In this document: positions 1-23,464 of the stretch, piece after piece
How the letters are laid out: each line of letters begins with the position of its first letter
Position numbering within the stretch: position 1 is the first letter of the stretch
DNA from: a virus
Virus record (IMG/VR): IMGVR_UViG_3300032288_002529
Location: 1-26,557 of that record
DNA length: 26,557 nt
Reading direction: 5' to 3' (one strand)
Notes under the pieces: generated by a model
What the model was told of the DNA's origin: nothing
Database searches by the model: none
Seen by the model: only the letters and a program-made list of their open reading frames with translations
Made by a program: the position numbers and the translations under genes

Positions 1-504
1 TACTCCGGCGCGAAGTCCGCGTTTGACCGTTCCAAGATTGCCGAGGTCGTTACTTCGATGACCCAAGCGAATCTCCCTTACGAGGAACGCGCCGGCCTCA
101 TCTCCCCCGCCGCTTACGGTCAGCTCCTCAAGGACCCGACGATTTCGCAGTATCTTTCCATCGGCTCGACCGAACCCGTCCGCGACGGTCGCATCGGTTC
201 GATTCACGGCCTCGAGCTTTTCGAGTATAACGGTTTCCCGACCTCCGGCACGGCCTTTACCGAGGGCCTCAACGGCCTCGTTTCTTGCAAGGAGGGTTGG
301 GTTATCGCGACCCGCGTCACTAACGCCCCCCTCACGGGCGGCGGCGTGCAGGAAACCATCGTCGAACCCGACTCCGGTTTCGCCCTCGCGTTCCGTCAGT
401 ATTACAATTGGCAGGAGGGCAAGATGCACCTCAATATGTCGTTCGTCAACGGCATCGCCAAGGGCAACGGCGCGGGCCTCCAGCGCATCGCCTTCACCTC
501 CTAA
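1..504 (+). CDS. Major capsid protein, C-terminal part (5' end outside window)
   Basis: The frame is open from base 1 and ends at TAA 502-504, so this is the last 167 residues of a longer protein. The fragment has the beta-rich, Gly-rich character of HK97/P22-type coat C-termini, for example DGRIGSIHGLELFEYNGF and the end region around FRQYYNWQEGKMHL. A strong terminator follows directly. Codon choice differs from almost every other gene here: Gln is CAG in six of seven cases and both His codons are CAC, whereas neighbours use CAA and CAT. That fits a very highly expressed protein. Head-module position (connectors downstream, terminase at the far end of the window) supports the call. Capsid identity is inferred from character and position, not from a database match. 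Confidence 0.72.
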   Translation, partial: YSGAKSAFDRSKIAEVVTSMTQANLPYEERAGLISPAAYGQLLKDPTISQYLSIGSTEPVRDGRIGSIHGLELFEYNGFPTSGTAFTEGLNGLVSCKEGWVIATRVTNAPLTGGGVQETIVEPDSGFALAFRQYYNWQEGKMHLNMSFVNGIAKGNGAGLQRIAFTS

Positions 505-529
505 TCGGAGGCCGCGATACAACCAAACG

Positions 530-554
530 AACCCCCGGCGACGGGGGTTTTTTT
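530..554 (+). terminator. Rho-independent terminator after capsid gene
   Basis: A perfect 8-bp stem (AACCCCCG / CGGGGGTT) with a GCGA tetraloop is followed by a T run. It sits 26 bases after the capsid stop codon. It should separate capsid transcription from the promoter array downstream. Confidence 0.93.
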
Positions 555-648
555 GTGCCCGGAGTTTAAAATATTATAAAACCCTAGGTAGGGAAAACAT
601 CGTTTGACCCGCATAAACATTGGTTGGAATGGGGTTGAAAATAGTTTG

Positions 649-687
649 ATAAATAATCTTTACAACGGCCCGGGTTTGGTAATGATT
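649..687 (+). promoter_or_regulatory. Promoter 1 of the small-gene array
   Basis: The A/T box ATAAATAATC (649-658) is directly followed by TTTACA (659-664) and, after 17 bases, ATGATT (682-687). The same A/T box plus TTGNCN hexamer recurs at 1005, 1359 and 1755, each time ahead of a small gene. The -35 and upstream box are well conserved; the -10 is weak and its exact register is uncertain. The rest of 555-648 shows nothing I can identify. Confidence 0.6.
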
Positions 688-709
688 ATGTTCGTTCCCA
701 CTAACTCAA

Positions 710-1012
710 ATGAACATCAACAACGCTCCCGAATCCTCCTCCAACGCCCGAAAGGTTTTCACCTCCGCCGCCGACTTCAAGGCCGCTTGCAAGGCCGCCA
801 AGAAAATCGAACCCGGGACTTGGGCACAGCTCGCCGCCGCGCTCATCGAGGCCGGTCACGGCGACGCTCTCAACGATGTCATCGCCCTCCTCGCGACCGA
901 CCGCGGTCGCAAATTGGTTCGCCCGAACAACGCCCGCGAGGTCGAGAAGATGACCGAGAATCTCTCCCGCCTCCGGTTGGGGACCAAATGGGAAAACCCG
1001 GAAAATAAATAA
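710..1012 (+). CDS. Small protein of unknown function (array gene 1)
   Basis: 100 aa, mostly helical and soluble, with a basic stretch (KAACKAAKK) near residues 26-34. I recognise no domain. Codon use matches the genome (CAA, CTC, TTG; no CTG), so it is a real gene. The ATG is preceded by CACTAACTCAA, with no Shine-Dalgarno site. It has its own promoter, lies after the capsid terminator, and its stop codon TAA sits inside the repeated A/T box of the next promoter. A small, independently transcribed gene inside the head operon is typical of a phage accessory (moron) gene; that role is inference. Confidence 0.72.
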   Translation: MNINNAPESSSNARKVFTSAADFKAACKAAKKIEPGTWAQLAAALIEAGHGDALNDVIALLATDRGRKLVRPNNAREVEKMTENLSRLRLGTKWENPENK

Positions 1013-1064
1013 TCTTGCCGACCGCCTCGCGCTCGTCCATCTTCTCCTTACCAACCCAACGCTC
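1005..1064 (+). promoter_or_regulatory. Promoter 2 and leader, 60-bp repeat copy A
   Basis: A/T box 1005-1014, TTGCCG 1015-1020, 17-bp spacer, CATCTT 1038-1043, then a conserved leader with CCTTACCAACCCAACGCTC ending three bases before the next ATG. The whole 60 bp recurs at 1755-1814 with one visible mismatch (T1027/C1777), exactly 750 bp away. The CATCTT-to-CGCTC part also recurs at 13392-13418. Confidence 0.75.
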
Positions 1065-1067
1065 AAA

Positions 1068-1280
1068 ATGAAATCCATAAAATCCAAAGCCGGGACCGCG
1101 TGGGTCCGCGAAGCTAACCAAGCGAAGATGAATGCCCTCGACCGCCTCGCCGATGTCCCCGGCGACACCGTCGACAATTCCATCGACCGCCTCCGGCTTC
1201 TCATCGAGGAGGCCCAAGCGACAATCGCGGCCCTCGAACGCGACCGCGAAATCGTTACCAAGTTTCGGGCGGAGTCGTAA
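1068..1280 (+). CDS. Small helical protein of unknown function (array gene 2)
   Basis: 70 aa, charged, with a probable coiled coil over residues 35-70 (SIDRLRLLIEEAQATIAALE region). The start is fixed by the repeated leader ending three bases upstream of ATG 1068. A strong terminator begins 29 bases after the stop, so promoter 2 and this terminator make it a monocistronic unit. No family recognised. A short coiled-coil protein could be a multimeric regulator or inhibitor, but nothing in the sequence settles this. Confidence 0.72.
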   Translation: MKSIKSKAGTAWVREANQAKMNALDRLADVPGDTVDNSIDRLRLLIEEAQATIAALERDREIVTKFRAES

Positions 1281-1308
1281 TCAAACCCGCCGACTCTCTG
1301 CCGCCAAC

Positions 1309-1333
1309 GGCCCCGGACCTCCGGGGCCTTTTT
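1309..1333 (+). terminator. Rho-independent terminator after array gene 2
   Basis: A perfect 8-bp stem GGCCCCGG / CCGGGGCC with an ACCT loop is followed by five T. It isolates array gene 2 from promoter 3. Confidence 0.93.
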
Positions 1334-1358
1334 GTTACCTCCGAACAAACCGACGAAA

Positions 1359-1397
1359 ATAAATAATCTTGACTCGGACCCCGGTTTGACTAGTATG
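1359..1397 (+). promoter_or_regulatory. Promoter 3 of the small-gene array
   Basis: A/T box ATAAATAATC (1359-1368), TTGACT (1369-1374), then AGTATG at a 17-bp spacer or the better TAGTAT (1391-1396) at 16. Transcription would begin very close to ATG 1406, leaving almost no leader. This is the only array promoter without the CCAACCCAACGC leader. Confidence 0.68.
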
Positions 1398-1405
1398 TCG
1401 GAGTA

Positions 1406-1762
1406 ATGAGTAACTCAACGCTCCCCAATTGGATTCCCGCCCGCATTAGATTCGCCGTCCGAGAAGCTTGCCGCGACTCCGACGGTTATTGGATTTACCT
1501 CCGCGACGAGTTCGAGGTCGACGACGGGTCGACCGTCTCGGGCGATACCGCGGCGGAGGCCGTCGAATACTTTTGGTCGGGTCGGCATAATGCCGCGTTG
1601 AGGGAGGCCCTCAAGTCCCGCCCCGCCCCGGTCGCCCGCAAGCGTAAGGTCGAGTTTGTCGCGGGACCCTTGGTCCCCGGCCCTCGCGCCCCCGGCGTTA
1701 CCGACCGCCAATGGGCAATCTACCTCGGGAAGCTTTCCCGGTATAACGCCGCCCATAAATAA
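1406..1762 (+). CDS. Small protein of unknown function (array gene 3)
   Basis: 118 aa. The N-terminal half looks like a small alpha/beta domain (residues 10-60) rich in aromatic and acidic residues; a basic linker (RKRKVEF) follows, then a C-terminal segment with WAIYLGKLSRY. No family recognised. GGAG lies only two bases upstream of the ATG, too close for a normal Shine-Dalgarno site. Given promoter 3, the mRNA could be nearly leaderless. The stop codon TAA 1760-1762 is embedded in the next promoter's A/T box, as in array gene 1. Confidence 0.72.
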   Translation: MSNSTLPNWIPARIRFAVREACRDSDGYWIYLRDEFEVDDGSTVSGDTAAEAVEYFWSGRHNAALREALKSRPAPVARKRKVEFVAGPLVPGPRAPGVTDRQWAIYLGKLSRYNAAHK

Positions 1763-1814
1763 TCTTGCCGACCGCCCCGCGCTCGTCCATCTTCTCCTTA
1801 CCAACCCAACGCTC
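1755..1814 (+). promoter_or_regulatory. Promoter 4 and leader, 60-bp repeat copy B
   Basis: Near-identical copy of 1005-1064: A/T box, TTGCCG 1765-1770, CATCTT 1788-1793, and leader CCAACCCAACGCTC ending three bases before ATG 1818. Confidence 0.75.
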
Positions 1815-1817
1815 TCG

Positions 1818-2000
1818 ATGATTACCCCGACCAAAAAGTTTACCGTCGAAACTTGGTTCGACCGTTCCTCGCGCAATTGGATTACCCAAATCAAGGACCT
1901 CGACGGCAACCAAGTCGGGTCGGCCTTGTTCGCGGGTCGCCGCGACTCCGCGGTCGTTAATCATTCCGACGCGGTCGCCCTCGCCCTCGCCCTTGCCTAA
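1818..2000 (+). CDS. Small protein of unknown function (array gene 4)
   Basis: 60 aa. I start it at ATG 1818, not at in-frame starts further upstream, because the repeated leader ends exactly there and the upstream extension overlaps array gene 3 and the promoter. The protein looks like a small beta-sheet domain (KKFTVETWFDRSSRNWITQ, then a strand around DLDGNQVGSALF) ending in an Ala/Leu-rich helix. No family recognised. It is the last gene of the array; connector genes begin 67 bases later. Confidence 0.68.
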   Translation: MITPTKKFTVETWFDRSSRNWITQIKDLDGNQVGSALFAGRRDSAVVNHSDAVALALALA

Positions 2001-2046: not shown

Positions 2047-2069
2047 TTTGACTCCCGCGGAGGGGTATG
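2047..2069 (+). promoter_or_regulatory. Conserved initiation element with hairpin and Shine-Dalgarno site
   Basis: The 23 bases here recur exactly at 8426-8448, and their first part at 3752-3770. CTCC-CGC-GGAG forms a small stem-loop whose 3' arm is part of the GGAGGGG Shine-Dalgarno site, four to five bases before ATG 2067. This is one of the very few Shine-Dalgarno sites in the window. Confidence 0.65.
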
Positions 2070-2411
2070 GGGTCAATTCAAGACGAATGGGCCGCGGACG
2101 CGGCGGCAATCCTCGGGGAAATCCCCAAGGCCGTTACCGTCCGTCGAACCCCGACCGGGACGGCGACCTCGTTCGATGTCCTCCTCGGCCCTCCGATGGT
2201 GCAACAAGATATGGAAACGGGCGGTTTCCTTAACTCGACCTCGTTCGAGGTTAAGTTCCTCAAGTCCGATTGCCTCGCCCATCCCGGGGTCGTCGTATTC
2301 GGCAACCTCGTCGCATACAACGGGGCGGATTATCGCATCGTCGCCTTGAACGACCGCCCTCCCTCGGCGTGGGTTATCGCCAAGGTCCAATCCAAGGCGG
2401 GTCCGGCCTAA
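2067..2411 (+). CDS. Probable head-closure (stopper) / head-tail joining protein
   Basis: 114 aa, the usual size of small head-completion proteins. An N-terminal helix (residues 1-20) precedes a beta-rich domain. The strand pattern VVFGNLVAYNGADYRIVAL at about 76-94 is typical of small connector/stopper proteins. Start at ATG 2067 is supported by the GGAGGGG element. Its stop overlaps the next start (TAATG at 2409-2413), so the neck genes are translationally coupled. The VGN-x-IAYN-x3-Y strand pair recurs in the probable tail tube at 3786. The role is inferred from size, fold pattern and position ahead of a gp10-like protein and tail terminator. Confidence 0.58.
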   Translation: MGSIQDEWAADAAAILGEIPKAVTVRRTPTGTATSFDVLLGPPMVQQDMETGGFLNSTSFEVKFLKSDCLAHPGVVVFGNLVAYNGADYRIVALNDRPPSAWVIAKVQSKAGPA

Positions 2412-3318: not shown

Positions 3319-3756
3319 ATGCCTACCCTATACGGAATCCGAACCATCGCCGAGGAATCGGTCCTCGCCGCGTTCCAAGCTCACGCGACCGACCTCCCGG
3401 GGGTCCAATTGCACGCGGGACAAACCGACGAGATTCGTTCGGTCCCGATTATCATCCTTCACGCGGAGTCGTCCCGGGCGCATCCCGACCTAGGCGGAAC
3501 CCCCTTGGGTAATTTCGAGATTACCTTTAAGGTTTATGTTTATTCCTCCGCGGACGATTCGACCCTCGCCGAACATCGCGCCCGGGTCGAGGCCGCGCAA
3601 GGGATTATGGAGGACCTCGCGGCCCTCAAGTCCGCTTGGACTCAAGGAACTTTGTATTCGGGTTGGGTCGTCTCGGAGGATGAGGGCGTATCCGACCGAC
3701 GATGGGGTAATTTGATTACTTACAACCTCGTCGCGGTATACCCTCCCAACCCTTGA
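3319..3756 (+). CDS. Probable tail terminator protein
   Basis: 145 aa. The pattern is that of small tail terminators: N-terminal helix (EESVLAAFQAH), a strand with IRSVPIIILHAESS, a loop, then a strand pair FEITFKVYVYSSADD, a helix over the HRARVEAAQGIMEDL region and C-terminal strands ending YNLVAVYPP. Such proteins cap the tail tube and set its joint with the neck. There is no Shine-Dalgarno site before ATG 3319. Its TGA stop lies inside the TTGACTCC part of the conserved element at 3752. Function is inferred from fold pattern and order. Confidence 0.55.
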   Translation: MPTLYGIRTIAEESVLAAFQAHATDLPGVQLHAGQTDEIRSVPIIILHAESSRAHPDLGGTPLGNFEITFKVYVYSSADDSTLAEHRARVEAAQGIMEDLAALKSAWTQGTLYSGWVVSEDEGVSDRRWGNLITYNLVAVYPPNP

Positions 3757-3770
3757 CTCCCGCGGAGGAT
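3752..3770 (+). promoter_or_regulatory. Partial copy of the hairpin/GGAGG initiation element
   Basis: CTTGACTCCCGCGGAGGAT matches the first part of the elements at 2047 and 8426, including CTCC-CGC-GGAG. Here the GGAGG lies about 20 bases before ATG 3786, too far for an ordinary Shine-Dalgarno site. Confidence 0.5.
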
Positions 3771-8425: not shown

Positions 8426-8448
8426 TTTGACTCCCGCGGAGGGGTATG
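8426..8448 (+). promoter_or_regulatory. Conserved initiation element with hairpin and Shine-Dalgarno site, second full copy
   Basis: These 23 bases are identical to 2047-2069: TTTGACTCC, the CTCC-CGC-GGAG stem and GGAGGGGTATG including the start codon of the gene at 8446. Confidence 0.65.
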
Positions 8449-12880: not shown

Positions 12881-13178
12881 CCTCCTCGTTGCGATTGCGG
12901 GGCTTACGATTGCGGCGGGGGCGACCGCGGTCCTCGCGGCCTATATCGCCGGGTTTGTCCTCGATACGATGGGGAACGCGAACTCGATGGCCCTCCTTTT
13001 GGGGGCGGACCGGATTGCCTCGGACTCGGCGGACCTTGAACGGCAATTGAACGCCGCCCAATCCGCGCTCAAGGCCGTTAAGGACCTCGGCATCGCCTTG
13101 GGGGTTGGTTGCCTTGGGTTGGGGGTTGGGGTCGTCGTCCGATACATTAGGCGGGCCGGTCGGGAAACGGCCTCATAA
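12840..13178 (+). CDS. Two-helix membrane protein of unknown function, lysis block
   Basis: 112 aa. Its start overlaps the holin gene by 41 bases in another frame. Membrane helices lie at about 15-44 and 84-104, separated by a soluble helical region (DSADLERQLNAAQSALKAVKD, a likely coiled coil), with a basic end (RYIRRAGRETAS). The last gene before the non-coding control region. It may be an antiholin, a second holin or a superinfection-exclusion protein; none can be chosen from the sequence. The overlap with the holin suggests coupled expression. Confidence 0.65.
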   Translation: MPSEPTNQSGAENNLLVAIAGLTIAAGATAVLAAYIAGFVLDTMGNANSMALLLGADRIASDSADLERQLNAAQSALKAVKDLGIALGVGCLGLGVGVVVRYIRRAGRETAS

Positions 13179-13228
13179 GTCAAGGGAAGGGCCTTTAAGG
13201 GGGTATTGGCGGGCGGGTTTGCATAATA

Positions 13229-13341
13229 TGCCCGAACGGGAACTTTTGTAAACTTTCGGGGGGTAAAGTTTCCAAATATGCCCGAACGGGAATATTCGTC
13301 GAAAACTTGTAAAATTAGTGTCAAAAGTTCCCGACCGGGAA
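13229..13341 (+). promoter_or_regulatory. Three regularly spaced palindromic operator-like sites
   Basis: The sites are TGCCCG-AA-CGGGAA (13229-13242 and 13279-13292) and TTCCCG-AC-CGGGAA (13328-13341). Their centres are 50 and 49 bp apart, in an A/T-rich, gene-free stretch ending 27 bases before the early promoter's -35. The first two are embedded in the identical sequence ATATGCCCGAACGGGAA. Palindromic half-sites suggest a dimeric regulator, and near-constant spacing suggests cooperative binding or looping; a replication-origin role is the alternative. Confidence 0.72.
13250..13271 (+). repeat. Inverted repeat between operator sites 1 and 2
   Basis: AAACTTT (13250-13256) and AAAGTTT (13265-13271) form a perfect 7-bp inverted repeat around CGGGGGGT. 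There is no T run after it, so it is not an intrinsic terminator. It may be part of the control region. Confidence 0.5.
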
Positions 13342-13368
13342 TAGGCAAAGAAACTTGAAAAAAGAATG

Positions 13369-13418
13369 TTGACGAACGGACCGCGGCCCCCCATCTTGTC
13401 CTTACCAACCCAACGCTC
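13369..13418 (+). promoter_or_regulatory. Early promoter and conserved leader
   Basis: TTGACG (13369-13374), 17-bp spacer, CATCTT (13392-13397), then the leader with CCTTACCAACCCAACGCTC ending three bases before ATG 13422. The -10 and leader match the array promoters at 1005 and 1755. An A-rich tract lies upstream of -35, with the three palindromes further up. It probably drives the whole early block. Confidence 0.72.
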
Positions 13419-13421
13419 CCA

Positions 13422-13643
13422 ATGGAAAACCTTAAGTCCCTCACCTCCGCCCGCCGCAACGCCCTCCGCGAATACGAGACGGCCTTTGCCGAATACAATT
13501 CCATCCCCGACCGTCGCGAGGTCGAAAAGGAAATTGCCCTTTATTCGATGCGCGTCGCCTATCGTCGGTATATGGACGCACGCTCCGCGATTACCCGGTT
13601 CCAAAATGCCGCCTACGCGGTCAACGCTCCCCGCGCCAAGTAA
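13422..13643 (+). CDS. Small charged helical protein, first gene of early block
   Basis: 73 aa, almost entirely helical and rich in Arg, Glu and Tyr (NALREYETAFAEYN, VAYRRYMDARSAITRF). Start fixed by the conserved leader. No family recognised. The first gene after the regulated early promoter is a common place for phage host-takeover proteins, but nothing in the sequence shows its target. Confidence 0.7.
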   Translation: MENLKSLTSARRNALREYETAFAEYNSIPDRREVEKEIALYSMRVAYRRYMDARSAITRFQNAAYAVNAPRAK

Positions 13644-13663
13644 TTCCCAACCAAACGCTCCCA

Positions 13664-14152
13664 ATGCTCCCCGAAAACCAAACGCTCGCGGTTCCGATGT
13701 TCAAGTATTATACCCCGGGCGAACGCATCAACGGAGGACGAATCCCCGAGTCCCTCGAAATCGAAAAGATGCTCGCCGAATGGTTCGAGACTCCGGTTTC
13801 CATCAACGAGCTTGCCAAGAAAACCAATCGCGACCCGCAATCCGTCCGCCGCATCGTATCGCGGGCGATTGCCCGTAAGCCCTCCCTCGCGGGGTTGAAG
13901 GATTCGATTTCCGAACGATTCTCATTCATCGAGGAATCCAATTTCGTCGGCGGCATCGCCAAGGGCCATATTCGACTCGCCCCCGATGTCATCGAGGCGA
14001 TTAACGACCTCCGCGGGCAAGGGATGACTTTCCGCGACATCGCGGCCCATCTCAAAATCAGCATTTCCGCCGCTTGGCGCAATTACTCCGAACAAGCTTA
14101 TCGGTCCGACCGGGCCGCGCCCTCCGAGGAATACGGACTCCCCCACGCCTAA
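13664..14152 (+). CDS. DNA-binding protein with two helix-turn-helix motifs
   Basis: 162 aa. First motif at about 45-67 (PVSINELAKKTNRDPQSVRRIV), split around a typical HTH turn; second at about 119-141 (GMTFRDIAAHLKISISAAWRNY in two halves). Both have the A-x3-N/G pattern and basic recognition helices. Being an early gene close to the three-palindrome control region, it is the best local candidate to bind those sites and act as the phage's regulator. The ATG is preceded by CCAAACGCTCCCA, like the leader elsewhere. A second ATG at 13697 also follows an AAACGCTC block, so an N-terminally shorter form is possible. Confidence 0.7.
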   Translation: MLPENQTLAVPMFKYYTPGERINGGRIPESLEIEKMLAEWFETPVSINELAKKTNRDPQSVRRIVSRAIARKPSLAGLKDSISERFSFIEESNFVGGIAKGHIRLAPDVIEAINDLRGQGMTFRDIAAHLKISISAAWRNYSEQAYRSDRAAPSEEYGLPHA

Positions 14153-14173
14153 CCTTTTAACCCCGACCAAACA

Positions 14174-14332
14174 ATGCTCCCCGAAAACAAACATATCGTC
14201 GAAATGCTTATCGCCGAACGCGACATCCTACGGGACGCGATGAAGGACCCAACCATTTCGACCGAAAGGTTTATCGGCATCGTCGAACGACTTGAACAAA
14301 TCCGCCTCAAGGTCGCCGAACTTTCCCTCTAA
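14174..14332 (+). CDS. Small helical protein of unknown function (52 aa)
   Basis: MLPENKHIVEMLIAERDILR begins a fully helical, charged peptide with leucine-heptad character (VERLEQIRLKVAELSL at the end). Its first five residues and bases around the ATG (AATGCTCCCCGAAAAC) are identical to the start of the HTH gene at 13664. The leader CCCCGACCAAACA replaces a Shine-Dalgarno site. It may be a small coiled-coil partner or modulator; unrecognised. Confidence 0.6.
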   Translation: MLPENKHIVEMLIAERDILRDAMKDPTISTERFIGIVERLEQIRLKVAELSL

Positions 14333-14351
14333 CCCCAACCCAACGCCCCAA

Positions 14352-14459
14352 ATGAAGCTCCTCGTTTACCTTGCAATCGGCATCGCCCTCGCCGTTTATA
14401 TCCTCCTCCTCGCGGACGGCCCCAACCTCCTCGAAATCATCGACAACCCCAAGTATTAA
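14352..14459 (+). CDS. Tiny single-helix membrane protein (35 aa)
   Basis: MKLLVYLAIGIALAVYILLL forms one membrane helix, followed by a short acidic tail (DGPNLLEIIDNPKY). The leader CCCCAACCCAACGCCCCAA directly before the ATG is one of the best copies of the genome's leader motif, which supports it as a real gene despite its length. Function unknown; small early membrane proteins in phages often act in exclusion or host inhibition. Confidence 0.6.
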   Translation: MKLLVYLAIGIALAVYILLLADGPNLLEIIDNPKY

Positions 14460-14463
14460 TCCG

Positions 14464-14748
14464 ATGACCCTGCAACATCTCAAGGAGGTTCAAAACCTCC
14501 AATGGGAGTTTTACGAGGCGAACGACCGCATCCTTACGGGCGACATCGCCGCCGCCAAGTTTGCGCTCCCGGTCCTCCGCGCAATGTGCGACGCGACCGC
14601 CTCCCAATTGCGGGCCTTGGGGTTGGTCGATGTCTACCTCGAACCCTACCTCGCCGCCGGGGGTTGGGTCGGCCTTACGACCTCTTATTCCTTCCCCGAC
14701 GGCGTTAAGGTCGAGGGGTCGTCCGTCCCCCGGAGGATTGCCCGATGA
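14464..14748 (+). CDS. Small protein of unknown function
   Basis: 94 aa, started at ATG 14464, four bases after the previous stop. Helical N-terminal two thirds (LKEVQNLQWEFYEANDRI, then PVLRAMCDATASQLRALG), then a Gly/Ser-rich strand region. Its last four bases overlap the methyltransferase start (ATGA), so they are translationally coupled. No family recognised. Confidence 0.62.
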   Translation: MTLQHLKEVQNLQWEFYEANDRILTGDIAAAKFALPVLRAMCDATASQLRALGLVDVYLEPYLAAGGWVGLTTSYSFPDGVKVEGSSVPRRIAR

Positions 14749-16653: not shown

Positions 16654-17160
16654 ATGCCCAACGAGTTCCTCCCCCCTCCTCCCGACGCGGATATCGACTT
16701 TGTTCGGTTCCTCAATTCCGTCCAAAACGCCGTTGCCGACTCGGTCAACCCGGCGTTCAAACGAGGCAACCAAGCGTCCAAATACGCATCCCTCGCCGTT
16801 ATTCTCGATACGGTCAAATCCGCCGCGGCCTCGTTTAACATCGCCCCGCAATTTATTATTACCGACGACCCCGACCGCGAGCGAATCGTCGTCCATCTCT
16901 CGTTTATCCATACCTCCGGCAAGTCGTTTGCGGGCGGTTCCTACCCGGTCAAGGTCGGCAACCTTACCCCGCAACAATTCGGGTCGGCCCTAACTTATGC
17001 TCGTCGTTACCTACTGTCGACCGGGGCGGGCATCGCCGTCGATTTGGACGACGACGGTAACGCGGCCTCACTCCCGTTCGCCGACCTACCTCCCGTCAAG
17101 GCCCCGCATCCCAAGTCGTCCGGCCCTTTGTTCCCCCCTAACCCGAATCCCTCCAAATGA
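16654..17160 (+). CDS. erf: ERF-family single-strand annealing recombinase
   Basis: 168 aa. SKYASLAVILDTVK (about 42-55) and PQQFGSALTYARRYLLST (106-123) followed by GIAVDLDDDGN are the classical ERF core: K-Y-A-x-L near the start and G-[SA]-x-[TI]-TYARRY with a downstream acidic DDDG. ERF proteins anneal complementary single strands and, with an exonuclease, drive phage recombination. The partners are present: a RecE-like nuclease (18301), an SSB-like protein (19153) and a RuvC-like resolvase (15808). The Pro-rich C-terminus is short. Its stop overlaps the next start (ATGA). Confidence 0.88.
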   Translation: MPNEFLPPPPDADIDFVRFLNSVQNAVADSVNPAFKRGNQASKYASLAVILDTVKSAAASFNIAPQFIITDDPDRERIVVHLSFIHTSGKSFAGGSYPVKVGNLTPQQFGSALTYARRYLLSTGAGIAVDLDDDGNAASLPFADLPPVKAPHPKSSGPLFPPNPNPSK

Positions 17161-18300: not shown

Positions 18301-19140
18301 ATGCTAACCCAAGACCAAATCGAGGCCGCAAACAAGGCCCGCAATCGTTCCGAATATGATGCCCTCCCGGGCCTCAACCAATCGACGGCCCGCCTTTTCC
18401 TGCGGTCCATCGCCCACGCGCATTATTCCTTGAATAACCCCAAGGAACCGACCGCCGCGATGCGACTCGGGATTTACGCCCATAAAGCTTTCCTCGAACC
18501 CGGCGAATGGGCCTCGTATATGCATTTGCCCGAATACGATGGGTCGAAAAACTCGAACGAATGGAAAAAGATTAAGGCCGATTTTATCGCCGCCAACCCC
18601 GGCGCGACCATCATCTCCGCCGAGGAACATCGCGACGCGAACGGAATCGCCGACTCCCTCCGCCGCATCCTGCCGGAATACGGCCTCCAAATCCTCGCGG
18701 TCGAGGTCGGCCTTACCGCGGATTATATCGTCCCACTCAAGGGGTCCCTCGATATCATCGCCTCGGACGGTTTCATTTATGACATCAAGTCGACCTCCGA
18801 TTCCGCGACCCGCGACGATTGGGGCCGCGGCCTCGAATGGTCCGACGAACTCGCCTTGCAAATCGCTTGGTATTCCGTCCTATACCGAGAAAACTTTGGA
18901 GTTAGCCCCAAGGGGTTCCGGCATATCGTCGTCGAAACCAAGGCCCCGTTCGAGGTCCAAGTTTTCGAGGCCGACGAGGAAATCCGAAACCGCGGAATCG
19001 AACTTATGCTCCGGGTTATTAACCAATACGCCCTTTATAAAACTTGCCTCGATGCCGGGTCGCCCTTTGTTCCGGGTTATCCCCGCGAAGTCATCAAGGT
19101 TTCGCGCCGCAAGTCGACGGCCCTCCCCTCCTTTTCCTAA
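18301..19140 (+). CDS. RecE-like PD-(D/E)XK exonuclease
   Basis: 279 aa. LGIYAHKAFLEP (His61) matches the G-x3-H-x3-L motif of RecE/Cas4-type nucleases. VEVGL gives Glu135. KGSLDIIASDGFIYDIKST carries the core D151 ... D161-I-K163. ELALQIAWYS gives Gln187 (the Q-x3-Y motif). Length fits a single-domain RecE/DUF3799-type nuclease. It should resect dsDNA ends to produce single strands for ERF and the SSB-like protein encoded next door. The leader AACAAACAAAATCCCGCCCT, A/C-rich, lies upstream of the ATG. Confidence 0.85.
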   Translation: MLTQDQIEAANKARNRSEYDALPGLNQSTARLFLRSIAHAHYSLNNPKEPTAAMRLGIYAHKAFLEPGEWASYMHLPEYDGSKNSNEWKKIKADFIAANPGATIISAEEHRDANGIADSLRRILPEYGLQILAVEVGLTADYIVPLKGSLDIIASDGFIYDIKSTSDSATRDDWGRGLEWSDELALQIAWYSVLYRENFGVSPKGFRHIVVETKAPFEVQVFEADEEIRNRGIELMLRVINQYALYKTCLDAGSPFVPGYPREVIKVSRRKSTALPSFS

Positions 19141-22278: not shown

Positions 22279-22571
22279 TGGCCCGCCAAGGCAAACGACC
22301 CCAAGTCAAGGACGAGGTGTTCCGCGCCATAATCTCGGAACTCAACAAGTCCGAACAAACCCCTCCGCCCGGGTTCCTTACCCGCGACGAATGGGCCGAA
22401 CGATGGGACCTAAAGCGGACCGCGGCCTCCCGGTATCTCTCTTGGGCGACTCAACGCGGCATCCTCGAACGCATTTTCCTCCGCCGCCGATTCGAGACGC
22501 AAGTCCGCAAGGTCCCCCATTGGGGCCTCAAGCTCCCGACCAAAAAGAAAACATCGACTCGGAACGATTAA
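22278..22571 (+). CDS. Winged-helix DNA-binding protein
   Basis: 97 aa, TAATG overlap. RDEWAERWDLKRTAASRYLS and GILERIFLRRRFETQVRKV (about 36-80) give a helix-turn-helix followed by a basic wing, like small MarR/Lrp-type domains. It ends in a Lys-rich tail. It could be a local regulator of the genes around it, or a replication accessory. Family not named with certainty. Confidence 0.62.
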   Translation: MARQGKRPQVKDEVFRAIISELNKSEQTPPPGFLTRDEWAERWDLKRTAASRYLSWATQRGILERIFLRRRFETQVRKVPHWGLKLPTKKKTSTRND

Positions 22572-22591
22572 GCCCCAATTTGCCCGACCTT

Positions 22592-23464
22592 ATGTCCCAA
22601 TCATTCTTTGACCCTCCCCCTCCGACGAAATATACCGTCCTCAACCTCGGGGCCGGGGTTCAATCGTCGGCCTTGGCTCTTATGGCGGCAAAGGGCGAGG
22701 TCGGACCGATGCCCGATTTCGCCGTTTTCGCCGATACCCAAGCGGAACCGACGGGCGTTTATCGTTGGCTCGATTGGCTCGAAACCCAATTGCCGTTTCC
22801 GGTTATCCGCGTAACCAAGGGAAACTTGACCGAGGATTCCCTAAAGGTCCGGTTTAAGAAAAGTCCAAAATACGGCGATGTTTCGTATTTGAAGCGCATA
22901 ATCCCGGCGTTTGGAATCTCCGACTCCGGCGAGTTTTCGGGGATGCTTGGTCGTTCTTGCACCGCGGATTATAAGGTCCAACCCATTGTCGCCGAAATCA
23001 AGAGGCGATGCAAAATCAAGAAGGATGACAAGTCCCCCGTCGTTACTCAATGGATTGGGATTTCCTATGACGAAATGCAACGAATGAAATTGCCGAACAA
23101 AGCTTGGACGCAACACCGTTGGCCCTTGATTGAGAAAAGGATGACCCGCGGGCATTGTATCGAATGGATGCGGAAAAACAATTACCCCGAACCTCCCCGG
23201 TCGGCGTGCTATTATTGCCCGTTCCATTCCCGCCAAGAGTGGCGACGAATGAGGAACGAGGACCCCGAGTTTTTCCAAAAGGCCATCGACTTCGACGAGG
23301 AACTCCGGCGCAAATGGAACGAAAACCGCGGAGGTATGCGTATGTCGGTTTTCATCAATGTCGAACGACGGCCCTTGCGCGAAATCGACTTTGACTCCGA
23401 GGAGGACAAGGGCCAACAAGTTATCGACTTTCAATCCGAGTGCGAGGGGATGTGCGGCCTATGA
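22592..23464 (+). CDS. PAPS-reductase/ATP-pyrophosphatase-like protein
   Basis: 290 aa from ATG 22592; the in-frame stretch upstream is only shadow. The PP-loop appears as LNLGAGVQSSALALMA (residues 17-32), a variant of SGGxDS. DFAVFADTQAEPTGVYRWLD (42-61) fits the next conserved block (ADT-x-x-E). Cysteines at 123 (CTADYK), 206 and 209 (CYYCPFH), 284 and 288 (CEGMCGL) could hold a metal or Fe-S cluster. The family adenylates or reduces sulfur substrates; phage members are common but their role is unsettled, and DndC, which adds sulfur to DNA, is a relative. No other dnd genes are seen. The stop overlaps the next start (ATGA). Confidence 0.78.
   Translation: MSQSFFDPPPPTKYTVLNLGAGVQSSALALMAAKGEVGPMPDFAVFADTQAEPTGVYRWLDWLETQLPFPVIRVTKGNLTEDSLKVRFKKSPKYGDVSYLKRIIPAFGISDSGEFSGMLGRSCTADYKVQPIVAEIKRRCKIKKDDKSPVVTQWIGISYDEMQRMKLPNKAWTQHRWPLIEKRMTRGHCIEWMRKNNYPEPPRSACYYCPFHSRQEWRRMRNEDPEFFQKAIDFDEELRRKWNENRGGMRMSVFINVERRPLREIDFDSEEDKGQQVIDFQSECEGMCGL

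Follow-up and report, generated by a model that had tools for sequence, protein, structure and literature searches.

The DNA between the major capsid gene and gene 2067, amid the structural genes of an uncultivated tailed phage, is a cargo slot. We consider it likely that its accessory cassettes are shuffled by homologous recombination at common promoter-leaders and terminators, probably through the phage's own Erf/exonuclease system. The window, meaning the whole stretch of DNA analysed, is 26,557 bp long; the IMG/VR record consists of this window and no more, and is a genome fragment (Table 1). Mosaicism in phages is as a rule deduced from joints that are old and blurred. In this lineage, what separates near-identical phages is an exact promoter-gene-terminator unit, so that the joints can be read off directly, together with the homology used and the turnover. 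The slot shows viruses exchanging accessory genes while essential genes stay intact.

Table 1. Features of the window that bear on the two cargo slots and on recombination
Position	Strand	Feature	Basis
1..504	+	Major capsid gene, 3' part; left slot border	PHROG major head protein, E 1.2e-10; relatives
529..555	+	Capsid terminator T1; cassettes enter 3' of it	Terminator prediction; hairpin in empty slots
649..686	+	Unit 1, putative class A promoter: AT-rich box, TTTACA, 16 bp, AATGAT	Sequence, promoter scan
710..1012	+	Gene 1, 100 aa	Homologue in L012 slot, there behind a class B promoter
1005..1064	+	Unit 2, putative class B 60-bp promoter-leader: TTGCCG, 17 bp, CATCTT, leader	59/60 repeat
1068..1280	+	Gene 2, 70 aa	No homologue found; native codon usage
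1309..1335	+	Internal terminator; promoter unit 3 begins within 31 bp	Terminator prediction
1359..1396	+	Unit 3, putative class A promoter: AT-rich box, TTGACT, 16 bp, TAGTAT	Sequence, promoter scan
1406..1762	+	Gene 3, 118 aa	Homologues in same slot of L013 and L020
1755..1814	+	Unit 4, putative class B 60-bp promoter-leader, gene 3 stop inside	59/60 repeat
1818..2000	+	Gene 4, 60 aa, PHROG 20571	97% identical protein in L008 slot
2067..2411	+	Conserved structural gene 2067, putative head-tail connector; right slot border	Position in relatives
13358..13418	+	Putative class B promoter-leader heading the right-hand operon; second-slot genes 13422-14332 follow	Homology to class B
16654..17160	+	Erf-like single-strand annealing protein	PHROG 2324, E 5.5e-22
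18301..19140	+	Exonuclease VIII-like protein; probably acts with the annealing protein	PHROG 412, E 4.8e-37

With the capsid fragment (which matches PHROG 283/267) and gene 2067 as probes, we obtained 78 distinct viral contigs carrying both borders. The gap between the borders was 67-171 bp in 60 of them, here called empty, and 417-2379 bp, with differing genes, in the 18 called filled. Of the 60 empty slots, 58 contain a terminator-like hairpin. Four junctions further downstream had no insert longer than 200 bp among 67-75 contigs each. In a tree of the flanking proteins, well supported branches force at least six changes between empty and filled, and the empty L014 has flanking proteins nearly identical to those of the filled L012 and L013. 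Gene A occupies the slot of L010, a gene 3 relative that of L020, and a gene 3 relative together with gene F that of L013; L008 carries gene X, gene 4 and a DNA ligase, and L012 six genes, one of them a relative of gene 1. The earlier note had pictured a modular slot of gene-plus-promoter cassettes, and this picture is strongly supported by the insertion hotspot, the variable content, the exact indels and the promoter-leaders common to unrelated genes. Relatives with the same four genes in fixed order and no boxes were looked for and not found. The filled slots of L053 and L089 and the ligase-only slots show no promoter by the pattern used. The idea that gene 2067 encodes a connector suits its position, but the protein has no family or PDB match. 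All the relatives are metagenomic assemblies, and L009 and L020 come from one sample; an assembly artefact is unlikely, since two samples (L009, L014) have empty sites of 158 bp and others have filled sites.

The motif ATAAATAATCTT occurs exactly at 649, 1005, 1359 and 1755, where four promoter units had been reported to start. It has no other copy in the window and is absent from all 200 first-order Markov windows. The 59/60 identity reported between 1005-1064 and 1755-1814, 750 bp apart, was reproduced; its 5' limit is the A of ATAAATAATC and its 3' limit lies three bases short of the ATG. As the identity spans the DNA from the AT-rich box to just before the start codon, the repeated object is a complete promoter and leader alone. 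Genes 1 and 3 do end inside the next box, with stop codons at 1010-1012 and 1760-1762, respectively, and the strong terminators placed before and inside the array were both confirmed, at 529-550 and 1309-1328; gene 4 has no clear terminator 3' of it. The single box type that had been described, however, resolves into two, class A (units 1 and 3) and class B (units 2 and 4), and the 17-bp spacer ascribed to all four holds for units 2 and 4 but is 16 bp in units 1 and 3.

Class A boxes combine a TTGACA-like hexamer, a 16-17 bp spacer and a TAnnAT-like hexamer, with the hexamers kept and the spacer letters variable, and resemble sigma-70 promoters. Members are units 1 and 3 of the window, the first units of L008, L010, L012, L013, L020, L048, L070 and L072, and both units of L082. 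A scan with the class A motif gave 83 matches; relatives are encoded in two of these contigs only, those of L008 and L010, which were already known, and we took the remaining matches as chance. Class B boxes have TTGACG or TTGCCG, a CATCTT-like hexamer at 17 bp and a leader ending ACCAACCCAACGCTC ahead of the ATG. They comprise units 2 and 4 of the window, those of L006 and L012, unit 2 of L008, and the right-operon promoters of the window and L007. The class B -10 is far off consensus: in units 2 and 4 a weak CATCTT at 17 bp is the sole candidate, and the promoter scan calls neither. We infer promoter activity for all the boxes, less certainly for class B than for class A. Gene 3 starts nine bases past the -10-like TAGTAT (1391-1408), so its transcript may be leaderless; its relatives use an ATG within the leader. 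The slots of L048 and L082 hold unrelated genes behind a common long leader (TGTAAGGTTAAGTTTTCCTTACTGTTCTTTCTCA, then a hairpin; L082:4844-5560, L048:5420-5547), which makes another kind of repeated regulatory unit, carried by a separate branch of the family.

Exact differences are seen between the empty L009 and the filled L020, whose sequence identity is 96.7% at the capsid end and 99.0% over the first 209 bases of gene 2067. The L020 slot has 502 extra bases between two copies of GGGGGCCTTTTTGTT (158 + 502 = 660 bp); without this unit it matches the L009 slot at 150 of 158 positions, ungapped. The L010 slot is likewise 158 + 353 = 511 bp. As the extra DNA in both lies exactly between terminator copies, phages gain or lose a promoter-gene-terminator unit as a whole, with those copies as its limits.

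Promoters and genes have also been paired anew. Similar promoters stand before unrelated genes, with 74-87% upstream identity and the genes at shuffled level. Within the window, upstream identity is 86.7% between units 2 and 4, with genes 2 and 4 at shuffled level. Identity of 77-85% links unit 2 of L008, the promoters of L006 and L007 and the right-operon promoter of the window, all of which precede unrelated genes, and unit 3 shares about 76% identity with L008 unit 1 over the 75 bp upstream of the start, where the L008 gene is again unrelated. The reverse pattern, related genes behind different promoters, is found for genes 1, 4 and F. The promoter of gene 1 is of class A in the window and of class B in L012, and gene 4 is 91% identical to its L008 copy with only 70% identity upstream. 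Gene 3 parallels its relatives as far as YNAA and then runs into the next box, the source of its stop codon. The earlier proposal of recombination at the shared boxes thus describes the re-pairing of genes and promoters, which occurs at promoter-leaders, but not gain and loss, which are bounded by terminator copies instead.

Genes 1, 3 and 4 are real genes under purifying selection, with dN/dS against their homologues of about 0.28, 0.45 and 0.06, respectively, and the codon usage of all four small genes is that of the phage core. This indicates old members of a gene pool rather than recent imports, and bears on the comparison with morons that had been made for the slot. A phage moron is an extra gene, equipped with a promoter and a terminator of its own, that lies between two genes adjacent in relatives (Juhala 2000, as cited in PMC7067206). 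The architecture fits, since the cassettes have their own promoter (recognised by homology, not by the scan, in units 2 and 4) and terminator. The native codon usage does not, and the cassettes also differ in having promoters homologous to the phage's own right-operon promoter and in forming tandem arrays. We think it unlikely that these are classic prophage morons, expressed in the lysogen for host benefit and acquired from outside by illegitimate recombination. Besides the position between genes adjacent in relatives, this reading can draw on the TTCCCG-type palindromes near the right-operon promoter, which were not found in the relatives' slot regions searched. However, no integrase or repressor was found among the scanned window proteins, and two genome-collection scans covering about 85,000 host genomes found no relative of the capsid or gene 2067, which argues against common prophages. 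The coincidence of the joints with homology makes illegitimate recombination unnecessary.

It seems very improbable that the boxes are mainly post-transcriptional, serving as translation starts or regulatory leaders for slot genes read from the late transcript. The leader ending ACCAACCCAACGCTC, which has no Shine-Dalgarno sequence, also stands at the promoterless gene starts 13664 and 14352, so the start leader is an element separate from the promoter; this recurrence, like the poor class B -10, speaks for a leader function. Shine-Dalgarno-like sequences precede several structural genes. Against such a function, class A keeps its -35/-10-like hexamers while its leaders vary, strong terminators lie just upstream, and the repeat of units 2 and 4 reaches upstream to the AT-rich box. 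An Rfam search gave no match, so the leader is not any known leader RNA.

In the explanation we favour, shuffling by homologous recombination, a cassette 3' of the capsid terminator would consist of AT-rich box, promoter, start leader, gene and usually a terminator. Its own promoter would free the expression of the cargo from the late transcript, and the terminators would insulate it; with a terminator just upstream, a new promoter becomes useful. As class B promoters are related to the one that heads the right-hand operon of replication and recombination genes, cargo behind them may be expressed early in infection, a timing suggested by that homology alone. The promoter-leaders (about 60 bp) and terminators (about 28 bp) recur within and between genomes and so could serve as homology arms. 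Recombination between two terminators would insert or remove a whole cassette exactly. Recombination inside promoter-leaders would place an existing gene behind a new promoter or a new gene behind an existing promoter, and would build tandem arrays (units 1-2 and 3-4) in which the preceding gene takes its stop codon from the incoming box. The Erf-like annealing protein and the exonuclease would be the likely agents; Erf and other Rad52-like phage recombinases are efficient on short and on diverged sequences (PMC3945230). A dedicated site-specific, integron-like system moving cassettes at the terminator hairpins would account for units that are exact from terminator to terminator and for the one terminator left at empty sites, but it is hardly credible, as the common stretches are enough for homologous recombination and make such a mechanism unnecessary, terminator sequences vary between lineages, and no integrase was found among the scanned proteins (part of the genes of a window that is itself a fragment). 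An integron array would have a tyrosine integrase, attC sites and promoterless cassettes; those of the slot carry promoters. More doubtful than homologous shuffling itself is the idea that it serves a dedicated platform with two slots, in which the capsid terminator and an early-type promoter might be standard docking ends, conserved for the rapid exchange of early-expressed host-takeover or counter-defence genes as exact terminator-to-terminator units.

The closest described principle, in the literature consulted, is that of the promoter early stem-loops (PeSLs), which are mobile regulatory cassettes found in T4-type phages (Arbiol 2010 and Comeau 2014, both cited from PMC4503421), in which a repeated early promoter and stem-loop flanks accessory genes and mediates their shuffling among related phages (PMC4503421). 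Here too, repeats of promoter and stem-loop terminator flank accessory genes, with a terminator closely before a promoter (1309-1396), and different genes lie between the same elements in related phages. Unlike the PeSLs as described there, the present elements belong to a phage lineage unrelated to T4, with a capsid of another kind and gene content that is not T4-like; the slot lies among the structural genes, the homology arms are of two separate kinds (promoter-leader and terminator), and exact terminator-to-terminator indels are visible between near-identical phages. As the working is PeSL-like but the genome is not T4-type, we do not class the slot as a PeSL member. The lineage itself appears undescribed: its marker gene has no match in 50,697 GenBank phage records, and no relative of the slot DNA, gene 1, gene 3 or gene 2067 was found in named phages. 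The start-associated sequences of cluster K mycobacteriophages, 13-bp repeats 5' of the start codons of unrelated small genes with the potential to pair with rRNA, were suggested by their authors as possible recombination targets (PMC3203893). The present boxes are similar in being short repeats just 5' of the start codons of unrelated small genes, but differ in being a 60-bp promoter and leader with no Shine-Dalgarno sequence, linked to cassette gain and loss.

Searches of the slot genes against Pfam, PHROGs, PDB and fold libraries gave nothing usable for function, whether for or against an anti-CRISPR, anti-restriction or anti-CBASS role. Nothing credible came from running PADLOC on the cargo, its library being of defence rather than anti-defence proteins. 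Structure models of genes 1 and 3, the two modelled, are of low confidence (pLDDT 65 and 48), and the gene 1 model has no PDB match. In named phages gene 4 has matches in Pseudomonas phages only, and these are weak (36-39%). DNA ligase is a recurrent cargo in several lineages of relatives, so the slot is not limited to counter-defence, which is a possible role for its cargo. The slot also acts as a sequence-defined trap for accessory genes, and small genes between the capsid terminator and gene 2067, or behind a class B box, are candidates for early host takeover or counter-defence. In the L089 slot (L089:5683-5955) lies a 90-aa gene similar to the first part of the PAPS-reductase-like gene of the window (22568-23464), and probably a truncated copy of it; the slot is empty in L085, a close relative of L089.

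The box at 13358-13418, before gene 13422, is a further related copy beyond the four first reported. The right-hand operon that it heads includes methyltransferase, resolvase, Erf-like annealing protein and exonuclease genes. Between genes 12840 and 14464 lies a second slot (13178-14464), with a class B box followed by variable genes, which differ among the window, L007, L113 (the contig of L020) and L114 (the contig of L010). Gene families F and Y are present in both slots: gene F lies in slot 1 in L012 and L013 and in slot 2 in L007. The slot 1 gene of L022 has a relative in slot 2 of L113. Three CCCG..CGGG-type palindromes (13229, 13279 and 13328; span 13229-13343) lie upstream of the 13358 promoter, one of them overlapping a minus-strand promoter-like site at 13252-13223. 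In L113 and L114, CGCAAATTTGCG stands upstream of the slot 2 promoter in their place. The palindromes look operator-like, with a specificity that appears to change between phages. Palindromes of the CCCG..CGGG type were not found in the searched slot 1 regions of relatives, a result compatible with regulation that differs between the two slots.

Three structural genes share a further putative start element. TTTGACTCCCGCGGAGG is found at 2047-2063, 3752-3768 and 8426-8442, a short way 5' of structural genes 2067, 3786 and 8446, a repetition far above chance, and it also lies 5' of the relatives of gene 2067, as a putative late-gene start element.
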